Shown here piece by piece: positions 15,297-21,617 of a stretch of 33,493 nt of DNA (position 1 is the first letter of the stretch; the number at the start of each line of letters is the position of its first letter). A model generated the notes under the pieces. It was not told the origin of the DNA. It made no database searches and saw only the letters and a list, made by a program, of their open reading frames with translations. Made by a program: the position numbers and the translations under genes. Source of the DNA: an uncultured Lutibacter sp. (lineage in GTDB: Bacteria; Bacteroidota; Bacteroidia; Flavobacteriales; Flavobacteriaceae); assembly GCF_937891065.1 (NCBI RefSeq), contig NZ_CALAEQ010000206.1:1-33493 (forward strand), written 5' to 3'.

Positions 15297-15356
15297 GTAT
15301 AAACCTTCTTAAATGATTCATGCTTAATTAGTTTAAAGTTATTGTAAATTTTTATA

Positions 15357-15388
15357 AAAAACCAGAGATATTAATTCTCTGGTTTTTT
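15357..15388 (+). terminator. Terminator after the cold-shock-domain gene
   Basis: A perfect 12-bp stem AAAAACCAGAGA / TCTCTGGTTTTT, 7-nt loop, T tail. Confidence 0.85.
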
Positions 15389-15591
15389 GCATTAATGCAT
15401 TAACTTGTCTTATAATAGTACTGAAATATAACAATTTTTATGATGTTTTTTTGTCAAAAAAAGCGCTCATAATTATAATAAGTATTACTTTTGAGCAACT
15501 TTTTCAAGTTAATTTTAAAAAAACTATAATTCTGTTTGGTCAATCTTCTAAATATTTAAATCTATAATGACAATTTTATACAAGCAATATT

Positions 15592-16437
15592 ATGGCAATT
15601 AAAAAAGCCATAAAACATATGCTTATTAGCACACTAGCTTTTGCTTGTATGAATGTTACAGTAAAATATTTAGAGAATGTAAATGCATTTCAAATTGTAT
15701 TTTTTAGATCCGCAAGCTCCTTATTTTTTACCTTCGGGTTTCTTTTGAAAGAAGGTATTCCAATTCTTGGAAATAATAAAAAATTGCTAATTATTAGAGG
15801 CTTGGTAGGTGTAACTTCTATGACACTTTTTTTTATGTCGATAAAATATTTATCAGTTGGTACTGCAGTTTCTTTAAGATATTTGGCTCCAATTTTTGCA
15901 GGTATTTTTGCTGTGATATTCATGAAGGAAAAAATATGGCCTTTGCAATGGTTGTTTTTTGTATTGGCATTTTTAGGCGTGCTTATATTAAAAGGTTTCG
16001 ATTCCCAATTAAACACTTTTGGTCTTATTTTGGTGTTAATTGCTTCCATAACTAGTGGATTGGTATACATAATTATTTCTAAAATCGGGAAAAGTGAACA
16101 TCCTGTTGTTGTTGTTAATTATTTTATGGTAATTGCAACTTTAGTAGGTGGTGTTTTATCTATTAAAAACTGGGTGAACCCTGAAGGAGTAGAGTGGCTC
16201 TTGCTATTAAGCTTAGGTGTTTTCGGTTATTATGGACAGTTAAACATGACCAAGGCTTTTCAAACAGGTAAAACCAACCAAGTGGCACCAGTTAAATATG
16301 TTGAAGTAATTTTTACTGTATTATTTGGTTTATTCTTATTCAATGAGGTTTATTCCTTTTGGAGTTTATTAGGTATCGCTATGATTATAGGTTCATTAGT
16401 ATTAAATGTGTTTTATAAAACTCATAAGGGAAACTAA
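15592..16437 (+). CDS. EamA-family (DMT superfamily) transporter
   Basis: 281 residues with about ten hydrophobic segments and two EamA repeats (about residues 5-135 and 143-275). Typical signatures are FQIVFFRSASSLFFTFGFLL in repeat 1, SLRYLAPIFAGIFAVIFMKEKIWPLQW at the end of repeat 1, and APVKYVEVIFTVLFGLFLFNEVYSFWSLLG at the end of repeat 2. These inner-membrane proteins export or exchange small metabolites; the substrate cannot be predicted. Solitary gene. Confidence 0.88.
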   Translation: MAIKKAIKHMLISTLAFACMNVTVKYLENVNAFQIVFFRSASSLFFTFGFLLKEGIPILGNNKKLLIIRGLVGVTSMTLFFMSIKYLSVGTAVSLRYLAPIFAGIFAVIFMKEKIWPLQWLFFVLAFLGVLILKGFDSQLNTFGLILVLIASITSGLVYIIISKIGKSEHPVVVVNYFMVIATLVGGVLSIKNWVNPEGVEWLLLLSLGVFGYYGQLNMTKAFQTGKTNQVAPVKYVEVIFTVLFGLFLFNEVYSFWSLLGIAMIIGSLVLNVFYKTHKGN

Positions 16438-16581
16438 TTATTTTTTTAAATAAAATACGTATAAAACTTACTAACAAAAAGAGGGAAGCATAATGTATTT
16501 AAAATTATGACTAATTTTAAATAACTATTTCATCTATAGGTTTTTACAAACTTAAATTTCAAAATATACCTAATGAGGTAA

Positions 16582-16650
16582 ACTATATTTCTAAAGAATT
16601 CTACGAATGGATATTTTGATAACGTATTTATCAAAAGAATATAATATAGT
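16582..16650. repeat. Nested inverted repeat upstream of the molybdoenzyme operon
   Basis: Outer arms ACTATATT / AATATAGT enclose a perfect 9-bp stem TTTTGATAA / TTATCAAAA (16614-16636, 5-nt centre CGTAT). The inner part looks like a dimeric regulator site. The half-sites resemble TTGAT/ATCAA of FNR, but the spacing is 9 rather than 4, so FNR is not claimed. Confidence 0.4.
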
Positions 16651-16669
16651 AGAAATAAAGGCTGCGTTT

Positions 16670-16693
16670 CCTAAAAAAAATCTTAATTTTAGG
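16670..16693 (+). promoter_or_regulatory. Leader hairpin before the molybdoenzyme gene
   Basis: CCTAAAA / TTTTAGG (7 bp, 10-nt loop) ends 32 nt before the ATG. It may be a leader structure or a weak terminator; no known riboswitch is recognised. Confidence 0.3.
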
Positions 16694-16725
16694 TTGCCAA
16701 AATTAAAGTAATTAACATACTGCCA

Positions 16726-18750
16726 ATGAAAATAATTTCAACTGTTTGTCCTCGAAATTGTTACAGTACTTGTAGCTTTAAAGTGGTAATTGAAAATAAT
16801 TTGGTTAAAAGTATTCAACCTCACTCAGGGAATCTTGCGACACTTGAAGGACCTTGCATAAAAGGACTAGCCTATATTGAGCGAGCCAATTCAAAAGATA
16901 GAATTTTACATCCTCAAAAAAGAATTGCTGCAGGAAAATATGAACGCATTAGCTGGGAAGAAGCAATTGAGACAATAGCCAGTAAGTTAAGTTATTACAA
17001 AGGTGATTTTGGCCCACACTCAGTGCTGTTTTTTGCATCAAGCGGTATGTCTGGTTTATTAAATGGTGTAAGCACATCATTTTGGAAAATGTTTGGTGGT
17101 GCCACAACAACTTATGGTAATTTATGTTGGCCAGCAGGTCTTGAAGCTACTCGTTTAACTTTAGGTGCTAATAATCACAATGCACCTTGGGATCTTGAAA
17201 ATGCAAAACTCATTATTGTTTGGGGTAAAAATCCTGCGGAATCTAATATTCAGCAAATGATTCCAATTGAAAAAGCTCAACAAAATGGGGCTAAATATAT
17301 TGTAATTGATCCTAGACGAACTTCTTCAAGTGAACGTGCTAATGTTTTATTTCAAATTAAGGCAGGAACAGATGCTGCTTTAGCTTTAGGACTTGCTAGA
17401 GAAATTATTAAGAATAACTGGATAGATACAGACTTTATAAATAAAAATGTTGTTGGTTTTGAGAGTTTTAAGAAACATGTAGCATCTTATACTCCTGAAA
17501 AAGTAGCTGAAATATGTCGTATTTCAACTTCTTCAATAATAGAGTTAGCCAGACTTATTGGAACCATAAAACCAATGACTCTTATTCCTGGTTATGGAAT
17601 GCAGCGTTATGAAAATGGCGGTCAAACAACACGTTGTTTGCTGGCTTTATCCGTTATAACAGGAAATATCGGTAAAAAAGGTGCTTGTTGGCATTATGCA
17701 AATCTTCAAAGTTATGTTTTTGATGATTTAAAAGAGCCAGAAAATTATTACCCTGGTTGTGAACATCCAAGCTTCCGAAGAAAAATATCTGTTGCAAAAT
17801 TAGGCGAGGATATGTTAAAAATGGTTAACCCAGAAATTAAAATGATTTGGGTAGAAAGAGGTAACCCTTTAACACAGAACCCAAACACAAACAAAATTAG
17901 AAAAGCTTTTAGAAAAGCTGATTTTAGAGTGGTAGTTGATCAATTTATGACAGATACAGCGTATGAAGCAGATATTATTTTACCTGCTAAAAATATGTTT
18001 GAACAATCTGATATTATTGGTTCTTATTGGAATCCATATGTGCAGTTAAAGCAAAAGGCGCTGGAACCAGCAGGAGAAGTAAAACCAGAAACAGAAATCT
18101 ATTGCTTATTGGCTCATAAATTAGGAATGAATTCAGATGAAATAAAAAAGAATATTCCAGAACCGAATGATGCAGAAGTTGAAAAATACTTAAATAAATT
18201 TTTAGAACCATTTCCAGAACTAACTTTAGAAAAATTAAAAGAAGGACCATTATTACCAAATTCTTTTGAAGAAATTCCATTTTCAGATACTATATTCCCT
18301 ACACCTTCAGGAAAAATAGAATTATATAGTGAAGAAGCTAAAAGCAGGTGGGGAGTTAATCCTTTGCCCGATTATGTTCCTTTAGTTCAAGAAAAAACAT
18401 ATCCATTACAACTATTATCACCAAACTCCAAAAATAGAATTCATTCTCAATTTGGAAATCTAAATATTATCAAACAATTTGAACCAGAAGCATATTTATT
18501 CATACATCCCAATGATGCTAATGATAGAGGAATTATAAATTTTGAATTGGTAAAACTATTTAATAATGAAGGAAGTGCTGAAGTTAAAGTTCAATTTGAT
18601 CTAGGATTAAGACTAGGAAATGTTGTTCTTACTAATGGACATTGGGCTGTTGATGGTGCTACACCAAATTTGTTTACAAAAGGGATTGAAACTGATATGG
18701 GACACGGAACAGCTTTTCACAACACTTGGGTTCAAATAAAAAAGATATAA
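16726..18750 (+). CDS. Molybdopterin oxidoreductase catalytic subunit (DMSO reductase family)
   Basis: 674 residues. An N-terminal [4Fe-4S] site C8-x3-C12-x3-C16-x27-C44 is followed by the family's molybdopterin domains. YGNLCWPAG around Cys134 lies where the Mo/W ligand is expected, suggesting cysteine ligation as in polysulfide/thiosulfate reductases and formate dehydrogenases rather than serine as in DMSO reductase; this alignment is by eye. Later blocks are VWGKNPAESN, IDPRRTSSSERA, GYGMQRYENGGQTTR, WVERGNPLTQNPN, the C-terminal MoCo domain (FPTPSGKIELYSEEA, NSKNRIHSQFGN, NGHWAVDGATPNLF). No Tat signal precedes the Fe-S site, so it is probably cytoplasmic-facing. It starts a tight three-gene unit with a ferredoxin/membrane-anchor fusion and a PLP enzyme. 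Substrate unknown; a sulfur oxyanion, sulfoxide or polysulfide is plausible. Confidence 0.9.
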   Translation: MKIISTVCPRNCYSTCSFKVVIENNLVKSIQPHSGNLATLEGPCIKGLAYIERANSKDRILHPQKRIAAGKYERISWEEAIETIASKLSYYKGDFGPHSVLFFASSGMSGLLNGVSTSFWKMFGGATTTYGNLCWPAGLEATRLTLGANNHNAPWDLENAKLIIVWGKNPAESNIQQMIPIEKAQQNGAKYIVIDPRRTSSSERANVLFQIKAGTDAALALGLAREIIKNNWIDTDFINKNVVGFESFKKHVASYTPEKVAEICRISTSSIIELARLIGTIKPMTLIPGYGMQRYENGGQTTRCLLALSVITGNIGKKGACWHYANLQSYVFDDLKEPENYYPGCEHPSFRRKISVAKLGEDMLKMVNPEIKMIWVERGNPLTQNPNTNKIRKAFRKADFRVVVDQFMTDTAYEADIILPAKNMFEQSDIIGSYWNPYVQLKQKALEPAGEVKPETEIYCLLAHKLGMNSDEIKKNIPEPNDAEVEKYLNKFLEPFPELTLEKLKEGPLLPNSFEEIPFSDTIFPTPSGKIELYSEEAKSRWGVNPLPDYVPLVQEKTYPLQLLSPNSKNRIHSQFGNLNIIKQFEPEAYLFIHPNDANDRGIINFELVKLFNNEGSAEVKVQFDLGLRLGNVVLTNGHWAVDGATPNLFTKGIETDMGHGTAFHNTWVQIKKI

Positions 18751-18752
18751 AT

Positions 18753-20144
18753 ATGGAGAAGAATGCGTTCATATTTAATACCAATAAATGCGTAGGTTGT
18801 ATGGCGTGCGTAGTTGGTTGTACTATTGAAAATGGAACAGAAATACCTCTTAATTGGCGCATAGTAAATGGTCACAACCATATAAAGCATCCTGAGCTTC
18901 CAGTATTTCATTTTTCATTGGCTTGTAACCATTGCGAAGATGCTCCTTGTATGAAACATTGTCCAGCATTAGCTTATACACGAGATAAAAAAACCGGAGT
19001 AATAATACATCATGCCGAAGCTTGTATCGGCTGCACGTATTGTACTTGGGTTTGTCCTTATGATGCTCCAAAATATAATGAAACAACAAGAATTGTTGAA
19101 AAATGTAATTTTTGCGTAGACAGAATTTCAGAAGGAACTAAACCTGCTTGTACAGAAGCATGTCCAACAGGAGCTTTAGATTTTAGCTTTCAAGAAGAAG
19201 TTGATTTAAATAATCATATTACACCAGGATTTGTAAATGTTGGTATTAAACCATCTATTCAATTAATTCCTTTACGTAAGGAACATACAAAACCAGAAAT
19301 AGTAAATATAGATGCTGTTAAAATTGATGCTGAATATTTGGATAATTATGTACCAAAACCTACATCAAAAATTCATTTACGAAAGGAATGGACTTTGGTA
19401 CTTTTTACACTTTCAGTTTCAGGTTTAGTAGCTTGGCAAGCATCTGGAATAACAAGTAATGTGTTCGTTTCACCTATAGCATTCTTTATTATTGCGATTT
19501 TCGCAATTGTACTTACGTCATTTCATGTTGGAAAAAAATTAAGAATGTGGCGCTTTATTTTAAATGTAAAAGGCTCTTGGCTAAGTAGAGAAATAGTTGG
19601 GTTTGGTATTTTTTTTAGTTTAGGAATTATTACATTATTTATTAAAGATAACATCTTTGATTTTAACGAGTTACTTCCATTTGTTAACAGTAATGCTTTA
19701 GGGTATATTACCATAATGTTTGGAATTTTTACTTTAATATCAATTGATATGGTATATAGTTTATTAGTTCGTAAAGACAAATTTAAACTGCATAGCGCTA
19801 TGGTTTGGCTTACTGGATTGTTGCTATTTGCTTGGTTTTCGGATTTTATTTTATTGATATTTTTAATTACATTATTTAAATGTGTTTTGTATTTAATGAG
19901 AAAACAAGCGCTTTTTAATCAAAAAATAACCTATTTTCCATTAATTACATCCATTAGATTATTAGTTTTAGTAATACCTTTGATTGTATTGATAGCTTTC
20001 CCAGAAATTTCAAATTCGAGTTTAGTAATTCTTGTTTTTATAGGTGAAATTATAGATCGAAGCGAATTTTACTATGAATCTGACGTAAAGACACCAAATG
20101 GAGCCTTGACTGATTTATTCCGAAATACTGTAAAAACAACATAA
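18753..20144 (+). CDS. Fused DmsB-like 4Fe-4S ferredoxin and DmsC-like membrane anchor
   Basis: 463 residues; the ATG is 2 nt after the upstream stop. Residues 1-200 carry four Cys clusters (C13VGCMACVVGC23; HCEDAPCMKHCP; CIGCTYCTWVCP; CNFCVDRISEG...CTEACP), as in the electron-transfer subunits of DMSO reductase-type enzymes. From about residue 215 (HLRKEWTLVLFTLSVSGLVAW) eight hydrophobic segments follow, a DmsC-type quinol-interacting anchor. In DmsABC these are separate proteins, so this is a gene fusion. It would bring electrons from the menaquinol pool to the molybdenum subunit, or take them the other way. Spacing implies co-transcription. Confidence 0.9.
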   Translation: MEKNAFIFNTNKCVGCMACVVGCTIENGTEIPLNWRIVNGHNHIKHPELPVFHFSLACNHCEDAPCMKHCPALAYTRDKKTGVIIHHAEACIGCTYCTWVCPYDAPKYNETTRIVEKCNFCVDRISEGTKPACTEACPTGALDFSFQEEVDLNNHITPGFVNVGIKPSIQLIPLRKEHTKPEIVNIDAVKIDAEYLDNYVPKPTSKIHLRKEWTLVLFTLSVSGLVAWQASGITSNVFVSPIAFFIIAIFAIVLTSFHVGKKLRMWRFILNVKGSWLSREIVGFGIFFSLGIITLFIKDNIFDFNELLPFVNSNALGYITIMFGIFTLISIDMVYSLLVRKDKFKLHSAMVWLTGLLLFAWFSDFILLIFLITLFKCVLYLMRKQALFNQKITYFPLITSIRLLVLVIPLIVLIAFPEISNSSLVILVFIGEIIDRSEFYYESDVKTPNGALTDLFRNTVKTT

Positions 20145-20173
20145 AAATTTAAAACTTTAAAAATAGTTACAGC

Positions 20174-21346
20174 ATGAAAATTAAAAATGTAAACGCATCA
20201 CATACACCGTTATATAGAGAAGCTGGTTTTAACTTAAAAAACTCAAAATTAACAAAAGAAACTTTTTCTAATGAACTTGAGCATCCTCATGAACCAGATA
20301 ATTATATTTATTCTCGTTACCGGAATCCTACTGTTGTGCAGGTAGAGAAGCAATTAATGAAACTAGAAGAATGTAATTGGGCGTTGTTAGTTGAAACTGG
20401 AATGGCAGCTATTGATGTAGCAGTTTCTGTTTTTCAGAAAGGAGCAAAAAAAAGGCCTTGGCTATTTTTTAATGAAATTTATGGAGGTACAAATTCATTC
20501 ATAGATTCCGTTTTAATTAAAAGAAGAGATTTAGATATTCATCGATTTTTTGCCAATAATGGAAGTTATGATTATGTTAAATTAGAAAATATACTTAAAG
20601 AAATAAAACCTGAGTTTTTATACTTTGAAGCAGTGTCAAACCCAATGCTTATTGTGGCTGATGTAAAACAAATTTTAGATCTTGCTAAAAAATATGAAAC
20701 GAAAATTATAGTTGATAACACTTTTGGAACTCCTTTTTTATGGAAGCCACTTGCTGATGGAGCTGATTTAGTGATTCACTCAGCAACAAAATATCTTAGC
20801 GGACACGGTAATATTACTGCAGGAGTTATTTGTGGTAATGATATTGAATTGATGAAAGAAGCCATTGAATACAGAAAATGGGCAGGACACTTTTTGAGTC
20901 CTGATGATGCTTATAGGTTAGGTTCACAATTAAAAAGTTTTAATTTAAGGTTTAAACAACACTGTGAAAATGCGATAGTTATTGCAAATTATTTAGAAAA
21001 CCATTCAAAAATAGAAAATGTACTTTATCCGGGACTAACATCACATCCAACTAATAAAGAAGCTGTTAGTTTATTTAAAAACAAAGGCTTTGGAGGTGTT
21101 ATTACTTTTGATATTAAAGGAGACAATGAGAAAGATAAAAGAGAAAAGTGTAATATCTTTATTGAGGCCATAAGCGAGTATATTCCTTTGGTTCCAACAT
21201 TGGGTGAAGCTGATACTATTTTATTACCTGTTGAACCTGTTTGGGGAGCAAAATATCCATTGCCTGGTGTTATTCGTTTATCTATTGGTATAGAAGAAAC
21301 TAAAGTTTTACAGGAGATAATAGAAATGGGATTAAGTCATTTATAA
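20174..21346 (+). CDS. Cys/Met-metabolism PLP-dependent enzyme (cystathionine lyase/synthase family)
   Basis: 390 residues, fold type I PLP enzyme of the cystathionine gamma-synthase / beta-lyase / methionine gamma-lyase family. Visible are YSRYRNPT (residues 46-53), ETGMAAID replacing the usual SGMAA, the phosphate and ring contacts around NEIYGGT, VDNTFGTPFLWKPLADGADLVIHSATKYLSGHG with Asp181 and PLP-lysine Lys206, and the C-terminal GVIRLSIGIE. The specific reaction cannot be told apart by motifs: cystathionine cleavage, C-S lysis of methionine-like compounds, or sulfhydrylation. It lies 29 nt after the ferredoxin/anchor gene in the molybdoenzyme unit, pointing to linked sulfur metabolism. 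Confidence 0.87.
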   Translation: MKIKNVNASHTPLYREAGFNLKNSKLTKETFSNELEHPHEPDNYIYSRYRNPTVVQVEKQLMKLEECNWALLVETGMAAIDVAVSVFQKGAKKRPWLFFNEIYGGTNSFIDSVLIKRRDLDIHRFFANNGSYDYVKLENILKEIKPEFLYFEAVSNPMLIVADVKQILDLAKKYETKIIVDNTFGTPFLWKPLADGADLVIHSATKYLSGHGNITAGVICGNDIELMKEAIEYRKWAGHFLSPDDAYRLGSQLKSFNLRFKQHCENAIVIANYLENHSKIENVLYPGLTSHPTNKEAVSLFKNKGFGGVITFDIKGDNEKDKREKCNIFIEAISEYIPLVPTLGEADTILLPVEPVWGAKYPLPGVIRLSIGIEETKVLQEIIEMGLSHL

Positions 21347-21352
21347 TTAAGT

Positions 21353-21544
21353 GTGAGTAAATTATAATATTAAATTGAGTTGAAATGTACTTTACTGAGA
21401 ATCGTATATTTGAATTTTTCTTAACCTAAGTACAGAATATCGTAAAGAAATAAAAGGCTTCTTAGATATTTTGCATAATATACAAAAGGAACACTTATTA
21501 TACTGACCAATGAAAGGAGAGAAGTGTAATAAGTGTGGAGTGAT
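21353..21544 (+). repeat. Degenerate dispersed repeat, copy 1
   Basis: This shares a 20-bp exact block (21395-21414) and a 15-bp block (21465-21479) with the 31.8-kb copy, and the block 21489-21544 with 27738-27793. The start (GTGAGTAA...) also resembles the 31.8-kb copy. Frames within it are broken by stops. It directly follows the PLP-enzyme stop and directly precedes a LytTR relic. Confidence 0.6.
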
Positions 21545-21546
21545 AA

Positions 21547-21609
21547 TTAACTATTATAAAGTTTATTAATACTCTTTTTATATGTTTGTCCAATTGGAAT
21601 TTTATATTG
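21547..21609 (-). pseudogene. C-terminal relic of a LytTR-domain protein
   Basis: The minus strand reads QYKIPIGQTYKKSINKLYNS and a stop. It lines up with the last residues of the LytTR regulator encoded at 27808-28626 (SIPVGRKYKDEVKIIL), and the adjacent downstream sequence is also shared. Only about 20 codons remain; the upstream part is missing and the esterase gene begins right there. Short, but the combined match to gene end plus flank supports the call. Confidence 0.5.
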
Positions 21610-21617
21610 ACAAGCTA

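Follow-up and report, generated by a model that had tools for sequence, protein, structure and literature searches.

A predicted cytosol-facing molybdoenzyme complex and its recurrent PLP-enzyme partner in an uncultured Lutibacter and in Bacteroidales

What might a membrane-anchored molybdoenzyme and an enzyme of cysteine and methionine metabolism do side by side? The question is raised by three genes (A, B and C; Table 1) on contig NZ_CALAEQ010000206.1 from the 3.2 Mb draft genome (G000) of an uncultured Lutibacter sp. (GCF_937891065.1), of which positions 1-33,493 of the forward strand (33,493 nucleotides, hereafter the window) were analyzed. The three plus-strand genes fill the region 16726-21346, and their ends, as well as the interval of 29 nt between genes B and C, coincide exactly with those given in a first-pass annotation of this DNA. 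Gene B starts at the ATG at 18753, two bases past the stop codon of gene A, and the TTG at 18726 used by the mechanical open-reading frame is unneeded. A promoter scan gave no more hits than were obtained in shuffled sequences.

Table 1. Positions of the three genes and their main features in the window
Feature	Position	Strand	Basis
Gene A: Mo/W-bisMGD oxidoreductase, predicted cytosolic, 674 aa	16726..18750	+	Pfam/NCBIfam, tree, AlphaFold, Foldseek
Gene A Cys134 codon, predicted metal ligand, motif YGNLCWPAG	17125..17127	+	Alignments; invariant in 36/36
Gene B: ferredoxin (four [4Fe-4S])-membrane anchor fusion, 463 aa	18753..20144	+	Profiles, model, Cys count
Gene B ferredoxin domain, DmsB/PsrB-type, 16 Cys, without export signal	18753..19232	+	TIGR02951 138 bits; Cys count
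Gene B anchor, eight-helix, DmsC/PsrC-like, N terminus predicted inside	19389..20081	+	PF04976; 2vpw_C; loop charges
Gene C: PLP enzyme of Cys/Met metabolism, own clade, 390 aa, Lys206 as Schiff-base lysine	20174..21346	+	PF01053 259 bits; tree; active-site columns

The product of gene A has the Pfam domains Molybdop_Fe4S4, Molybdopterin and Molydop_binding, as in bis-MGD molybdoenzymes, and a single N-terminal [4Fe-4S] motif (CPRNCYSTC), which usually starts at about residue 8 in the 36 family members. In the sequence alignment, Cys134 falls in the column of Cys173 of Thermus PsrA and Sec140 of FdhF, both of which are metal ligands, and Trp135 occupies the position of His141, a catalytic residue of formate dehydrogenase (FdhF). 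Because this His is absent (Cys134-Trp135), a formate dehydrogenase was rejected as the identity of gene A. The motifs YG[N/S]LCW[P/S]AG and CPRNCY..C are kept in all 36 of the collected relatives, and a twin-Arg (Tat) motif was found in none of the 36; the candidate Cys ligand and the missing Tat signal that had been noticed at first pass are thus features of the whole family. Every member family of NCBIfam scored below its cut-off, the best being Fdh-alpha (317; cut-off 666), DmsA/YnfE TIGR02166 (310; 778) and PhsA (222; 694). With enzymes of E. coli and Thermus as references in a tree (Thermus PsrA entered as a partial sequence), the gene A family forms one clade (support 100) and joins soluble, Cys-ligated, uncharacterized enzymes of Bacillota (support 98), apart from the Ser-ligated DmsA/YnfE/YnfF, from PsrA and from FdhF/NapA. 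Among characterized enzymes, the DmsA/YnfE clade is the nearest; PsrA clusters with L003, another protein of the window genome, and not with gene A. The phylogeny against PsrA/PhsA, DmsA and formate dehydrogenases that had been proposed at first pass therefore assigns gene A to none of them. The AlphaFold model of gene A has a pLDDT of 88, and its Foldseek neighbours span the whole DMSO-reductase superfamily with similar scores, so the fold does not narrow the function.

The Bacillota enzymes of the sister clade, which we take to be of the YyaE type, show about 32% identity to gene A and are likewise cytosolic and Cys-ligated, but have no B partner adjacent; no conserved neighbours of these homologs were found, and hence their surroundings give no functional hints. 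Further relatives of gene A are present on a Streptomyces plasmid (L246, 5986-8073) and an Agrobacterium vitis plasmid (L245, 5977-8103), surrounded by a putative amino-acid-type set (dapF, aminotransferase, 2OG-Fe dioxygenase and aldo/keto reductase) or by ferredoxin, an FAD oxidoreductase and MoaA, which represent alternative electron partners for this type of enzyme. The window genome itself also encodes formate-dehydrogenase-like, PsrA-like (with a ferredoxin subunit) and NapA-like molybdoenzymes (L002, L003 and L007).

Gene B is a single reading frame, which bears out the fusion of electron-transfer and membrane subunits reported at first pass, and the fusion recurs in relatives and is not specific to the window. 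Residues 1-160 contain 16 cluster cysteines in the DmsB/PsrB pattern and are fused to an eight-helix anchor of the DmsC/PsrC type. The anchor scores just above the cut-off of the DmsC-like family PF04976 (25.5 bits; cut-off 22.3), and its best solved fold is PsrC (2vpw_C; probability 1.0, E 0.02, target TM 0.54); the model is poor in its ferredoxin half. The loops on the side of the N-terminus and the Fe-S clusters carry positive charges and neither A nor B has an export signal, so the complex is predicted to be cytosolic; A-B appears to face the cytosol. The label "respiratory-type" given to it earlier needs care in view of this orientation. The same set of a bis-MGD subunit, a four-cluster ferredoxin and an eight-helix anchor is found in DmsABC/YnfEFGH, the DMSO and selenate reductases of E. 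coli; however, DmsA is Tat-exported with a Ser ligand, whereas gene A is predicted to be cytosolic and has Cys, and the ferredoxin and the anchor are fused only in B. PsrABC/PhsABC share the Cys ligand and the PsrC anchor fold with A-B but differ from gene A in clade and export, and the PhsA model scores far below its cut-off.

Gene C matches PF01053 above the cut-off and keeps the Schiff-base lysine (in the SATKY motif) and the gamma-family active-site motifs YSR, YGGT and SATKY-GHG. In a tree of 20 gene C proteins, the paralogs from the same genomes, and MetB and MetC of E. coli, the 20 proteins separate from every other sequence as a clade of their own (support 100; stem 1.61). A housekeeping MetB/MetC origin of gene C was accordingly rejected, and the grouping with these enzymes that had been named beforehand as speaking against the first-pass reading did not occur. 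The window genome encodes three further members of the PLP family (31-32% identity to gene C), so gene C is not the sole MetB/MetC-like gene there. Against the methionine gamma-lyase model TIGR01328, gene C reaches 208 bits, below the cut-off of 549.7, and near-members of TIGR01328 are present separately in several of the genomes. Members of the gene C clade have PVEPVWG.KYP in place of the C-terminal loop with HPA.MTH, and gene C scores 177 bits with a model of the archaeal Ala/Glu racemase, which belongs to the same fold family.

The three residues that bind the far end of the substrate in cystathionine gamma-lyase (CGL; numbering partly after PMC6073527) are replaced in all 20 gene C proteins: Glu59 by Ile, Arg119 by Ser, Thr, Ala or Gln, and Glu339 by Pro. 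In CGL, the Glu59/Glu339 pair coordinates the cysteinyl moiety of cystathionine, and a hydrophobic residue at Glu339 leads to more H2S from cysteine (PMC6073527). The absence of these ligands argues for, but does not prove, a substrate whose far end is uncharged (methionine or homocysteine, for example), and the far pocket of gene C is hydrophobic like that of methionine gamma-lyase. Gene C, which shares its fold family, PLP lysine and gamma-family motifs with methionine gamma-lyase and CGL and differs from them in its separate clade, its C-terminal loop and the lack of the CGL far-end ligands, probably breaks sulfur amino acids.

A-B-C were found together in five genomes (the window genome, L008, L009, L010 and L133), and because of this recurrence the grouping is not due to chance. 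Gene C adjoins B or an anchor in eight of about 20 genomes, in four lineages; a B-C pair exists in L108, with A on another short contig, and C-B in L134, with A elsewhere. The conservation of the PLP gene in its neighbourhood, on which the first-pass reading depended, is thus recurrent, but adjacency is not constant. Among 393 genomes of Bacteroidales (the order of Ancylomarina), gene A was found in 29, gene C in 17 and both in 14 (Fisher p 2.5e-15, kinship being ignored), which is far above chance and supports a functional link. Since A-B and C are mostly on separate contigs or far apart, adjacency alone cannot explain the association. The distances of A and C correlate (Mantel r 0.83, p 1e-4, 17 genomes, kinship again being ignored), and the carriers of gene C group together on the A tree (6 changes vs 12.4 when shuffled). 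A and C probably serve one sulfur-compound pathway, to judge from these patterns. About half of the A-B genomes (15/29) are without gene C, so A-B must also have a use alone. No third conserved partner was found near A or C, the neighbours being lineage-local (DUF1987-like, short-chain dehydrogenase, V-ATPase and pyrB).

In Ancylomarina, genes for Ptb, an aminotransferase and a four-subunit 2-oxoacid:ferredoxin oxidoreductase (PorGDAB-like) lie directly upstream of A and are preceded by Lrp, and butyrate kinase (Buk) is present in addition in L010. Judging from its gene content, this cluster is the oxidative arm of an amino-acid fermentation, into which gene C fits because a gamma-lyase yields a 2-oxo acid. 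No hidden extra gene was found in the gap between A and B in Ancylomarina.

Based on these features, we tentatively favor A-B as a cytosolic, menaquinone-linked reductase of an oxidized sulfur amino acid, accompanied by a methionine-gamma-lyase-like gene C; its orientation, quinone use, electron direction and substrates are what we infer. In the membrane-bound, cytosol-facing molybdoenzyme, electrons would travel between the Mo-Cys site of A and menaquinone bound to the PsrC/DmsC-like anchor by way of the single cluster of A and the four of B, and menaquinol would be used to reduce an oxidized sulfur amino acid, for example free methionine sulfoxide. Gene C, as a gamma-lyase-type enzyme with a pocket suited to a methionine-like substrate, would split the C-S bond and release a thiol and ammonia together with a 2-oxo acid. 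In Ancylomarina, this acid could enter the adjacent 2-oxoacid:ferredoxin oxidoreductase and yield ATP by way of Ptb and Buk. In favor of this reading, MtsZ, a DMSO-reductase-family enzyme, reduces free methionine sulfoxide (PMC5122715). MtsZ and BisC (reductases of methionine sulfoxide and biotin sulfoxide) share the superfamily and the proposed substrate with A, but they are of the Ser-ligated Dor/Tor type, belong to another clade and have no B-like anchor (PMC5122715; TorA in our tree). The main argument against the sulfoxide reading is the Cys site in A, as opposed to the Ser ligand in DmsA and the TorA/MtsZ type. Also against the preferred reading stand the Gly of gene C at the position that we take to be Cys116 of the Pseudomonas methionine gamma-lyase, the A-B genomes without C, and the Ptb/POR context, which was seen only in Ancylomarina and not in the other lineages. 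Somewhat more doubtful is a wider proposal, namely that Bacteroidales have a cytosolic pathway for dissimilating an oxidized sulfur amino acid through a menaquinone-linked molybdoenzyme acting jointly with a methionine-gamma-lyase-like enzyme dedicated to it, and that this pathway supplies the quinone pool as well as ATP formation at the substrate level. The pathway suggested at first pass, in which a sulfur compound is reduced and its sulfur used or released, has a plausible sulfur role from the residues of C and the Ancylomarina context, whereas the reduction of a sulfur compound is something that we infer.

Four other explanations were weighed. It is unlikely that A-B reduces polysulfide, persulfide or thiosulfate in the cytosol and that the sulfide is produced or consumed by C, acting as a cysteine/homocysteine desulfhydrase or sulfhydrylase. 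Such a system would account for the Cys ligand shared with PsrA, the anchor fold nearest to PsrC, the sulfur amino-acid PLP family of gene C and the annotation of a thiosulfate reductase in Marinifilaceae (PMC9765461); however, A falls outside the clade of PsrA, to which L003 of the same genome belongs, the score of A with the PhsA model (222 bits) is far from the cut-off of 694, and PsrA/PhsA are exported while A is not. Polysulfide reduction, one of the options named at first pass, is disfavoured by this clade position and by the separate PsrA-like L003. With no substrate candidate at hand, and formate disfavoured by the change of His141 to Trp, A-B is also not likely to be a dehydrogenase that oxidizes, on the cytosolic side, a product of C or of the amino-acid pathway and passes the electrons to menaquinone, even though the sequence gives no electron direction, genes for amino-acid oxidation lie upstream in Ancylomarina, and related soluble or ferredoxin/FAD-linked enzymes occur in amino-acid-type gene sets (Streptomyces L246 and Agrobacterium L245). 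The racemase score of 177 bits and the exchanged C-terminal loop would suit a gene C with chemistry other than C-S cleavage (such as racemization or gamma-replacement), linked to A-B through a non-sulfur amino-acid derivative, but the conserved PLP lysine and YSR, YGGT and SATKY-GHG motifs speak against this, and it is unlikely. Finally, that A, B and C are mere neighbours, with C a housekeeping or lineage co-inherited gene, agrees with the 15 of 29 A-B genomes without C, the lack of a third partner and an A-C association figure that ignores phylogeny, but is improbable given the C clade separate from MetB/MetC, the three other PLP paralogs already in the window genome, the C-B linkage in four lineages and the apparent joint transfer described below.

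Each component of the preferred reductase and gamma-lyase-like system belongs to a known superfamily, and no description of a cytosolic fused Cys-type complex with a PLP partner was found in the papers searched, subscription journals being mostly outside the search; within this scope, the first-pass statement that no such system had been described agrees with ours. Papers linking methionine sulfoxide, molybdenum and methanethiol were also not found in the literature searched. Molybdoenzymes of the host group, perhaps including gene A, have been given names such as "thiosulfate reductase" and "DMSO reductase" (PMC9765461), and the coherent gene A clade fits neither name. The conserved partner C offers a way to test the substrate of gene A. 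Should the sulfur amino-acid reading be right, these genes would add to the sources from which methanethiol or sulfide arises in anoxic marine sediments, and would provide a new sink for electrons.

How did A-B-C come to be in a flavobacterium? At E <= 1e-100, gene A was found in none of 300 further genomes from the family to which the window belongs, and the closest relatives are from Bacteroidales, namely L008 (A/B/C 82/65/75%) and two Ancylomarina. The place of the trio is a point of rearrangement (window 15297-21617): in G271, a genome of the same genus, the counterparts of the left flank (to 15296) and the right flank (from 21618) are on different contigs (L237 and L238), with A-B-C absent. 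Taken together, the family genomes without A, the G271 flanks without the trio and the nearest relatives in Bacteroidales indicate that the host probably received A-B-C by transfer, as a unit. A chimeric contig is disfavoured by the GC content of the trio (31-33%), as compared with 29% for the contig and 39-42% for L008 and Ancylomarina, and further by the match of the flanking genes to the same-genus genome.

Several other arrangements were seen around these genes. Small genes, often in tandem and presumably DUF1987/SiaC-like, lie beside A-B in one lineage (L176, L177 and L180) and beside C in others (L135, L136 and L137). In L127, L128 and L129, which belong to one lineage, gene C immediately precedes an operon for a V/A-type ATPase, and in some of these a small PAS-domain-like gene is divergent from C. 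L132:8368-9138 is an anchor-only relative of B that has no ferredoxin and overlaps the start of gene C, A not being found in the L132 genome. Besides an intact A gene, the genome G826 has another copy that is truncated and contains an internal stop (L175:17592-18281, about 49% identity), and B in this genome adjoins C instead of A.
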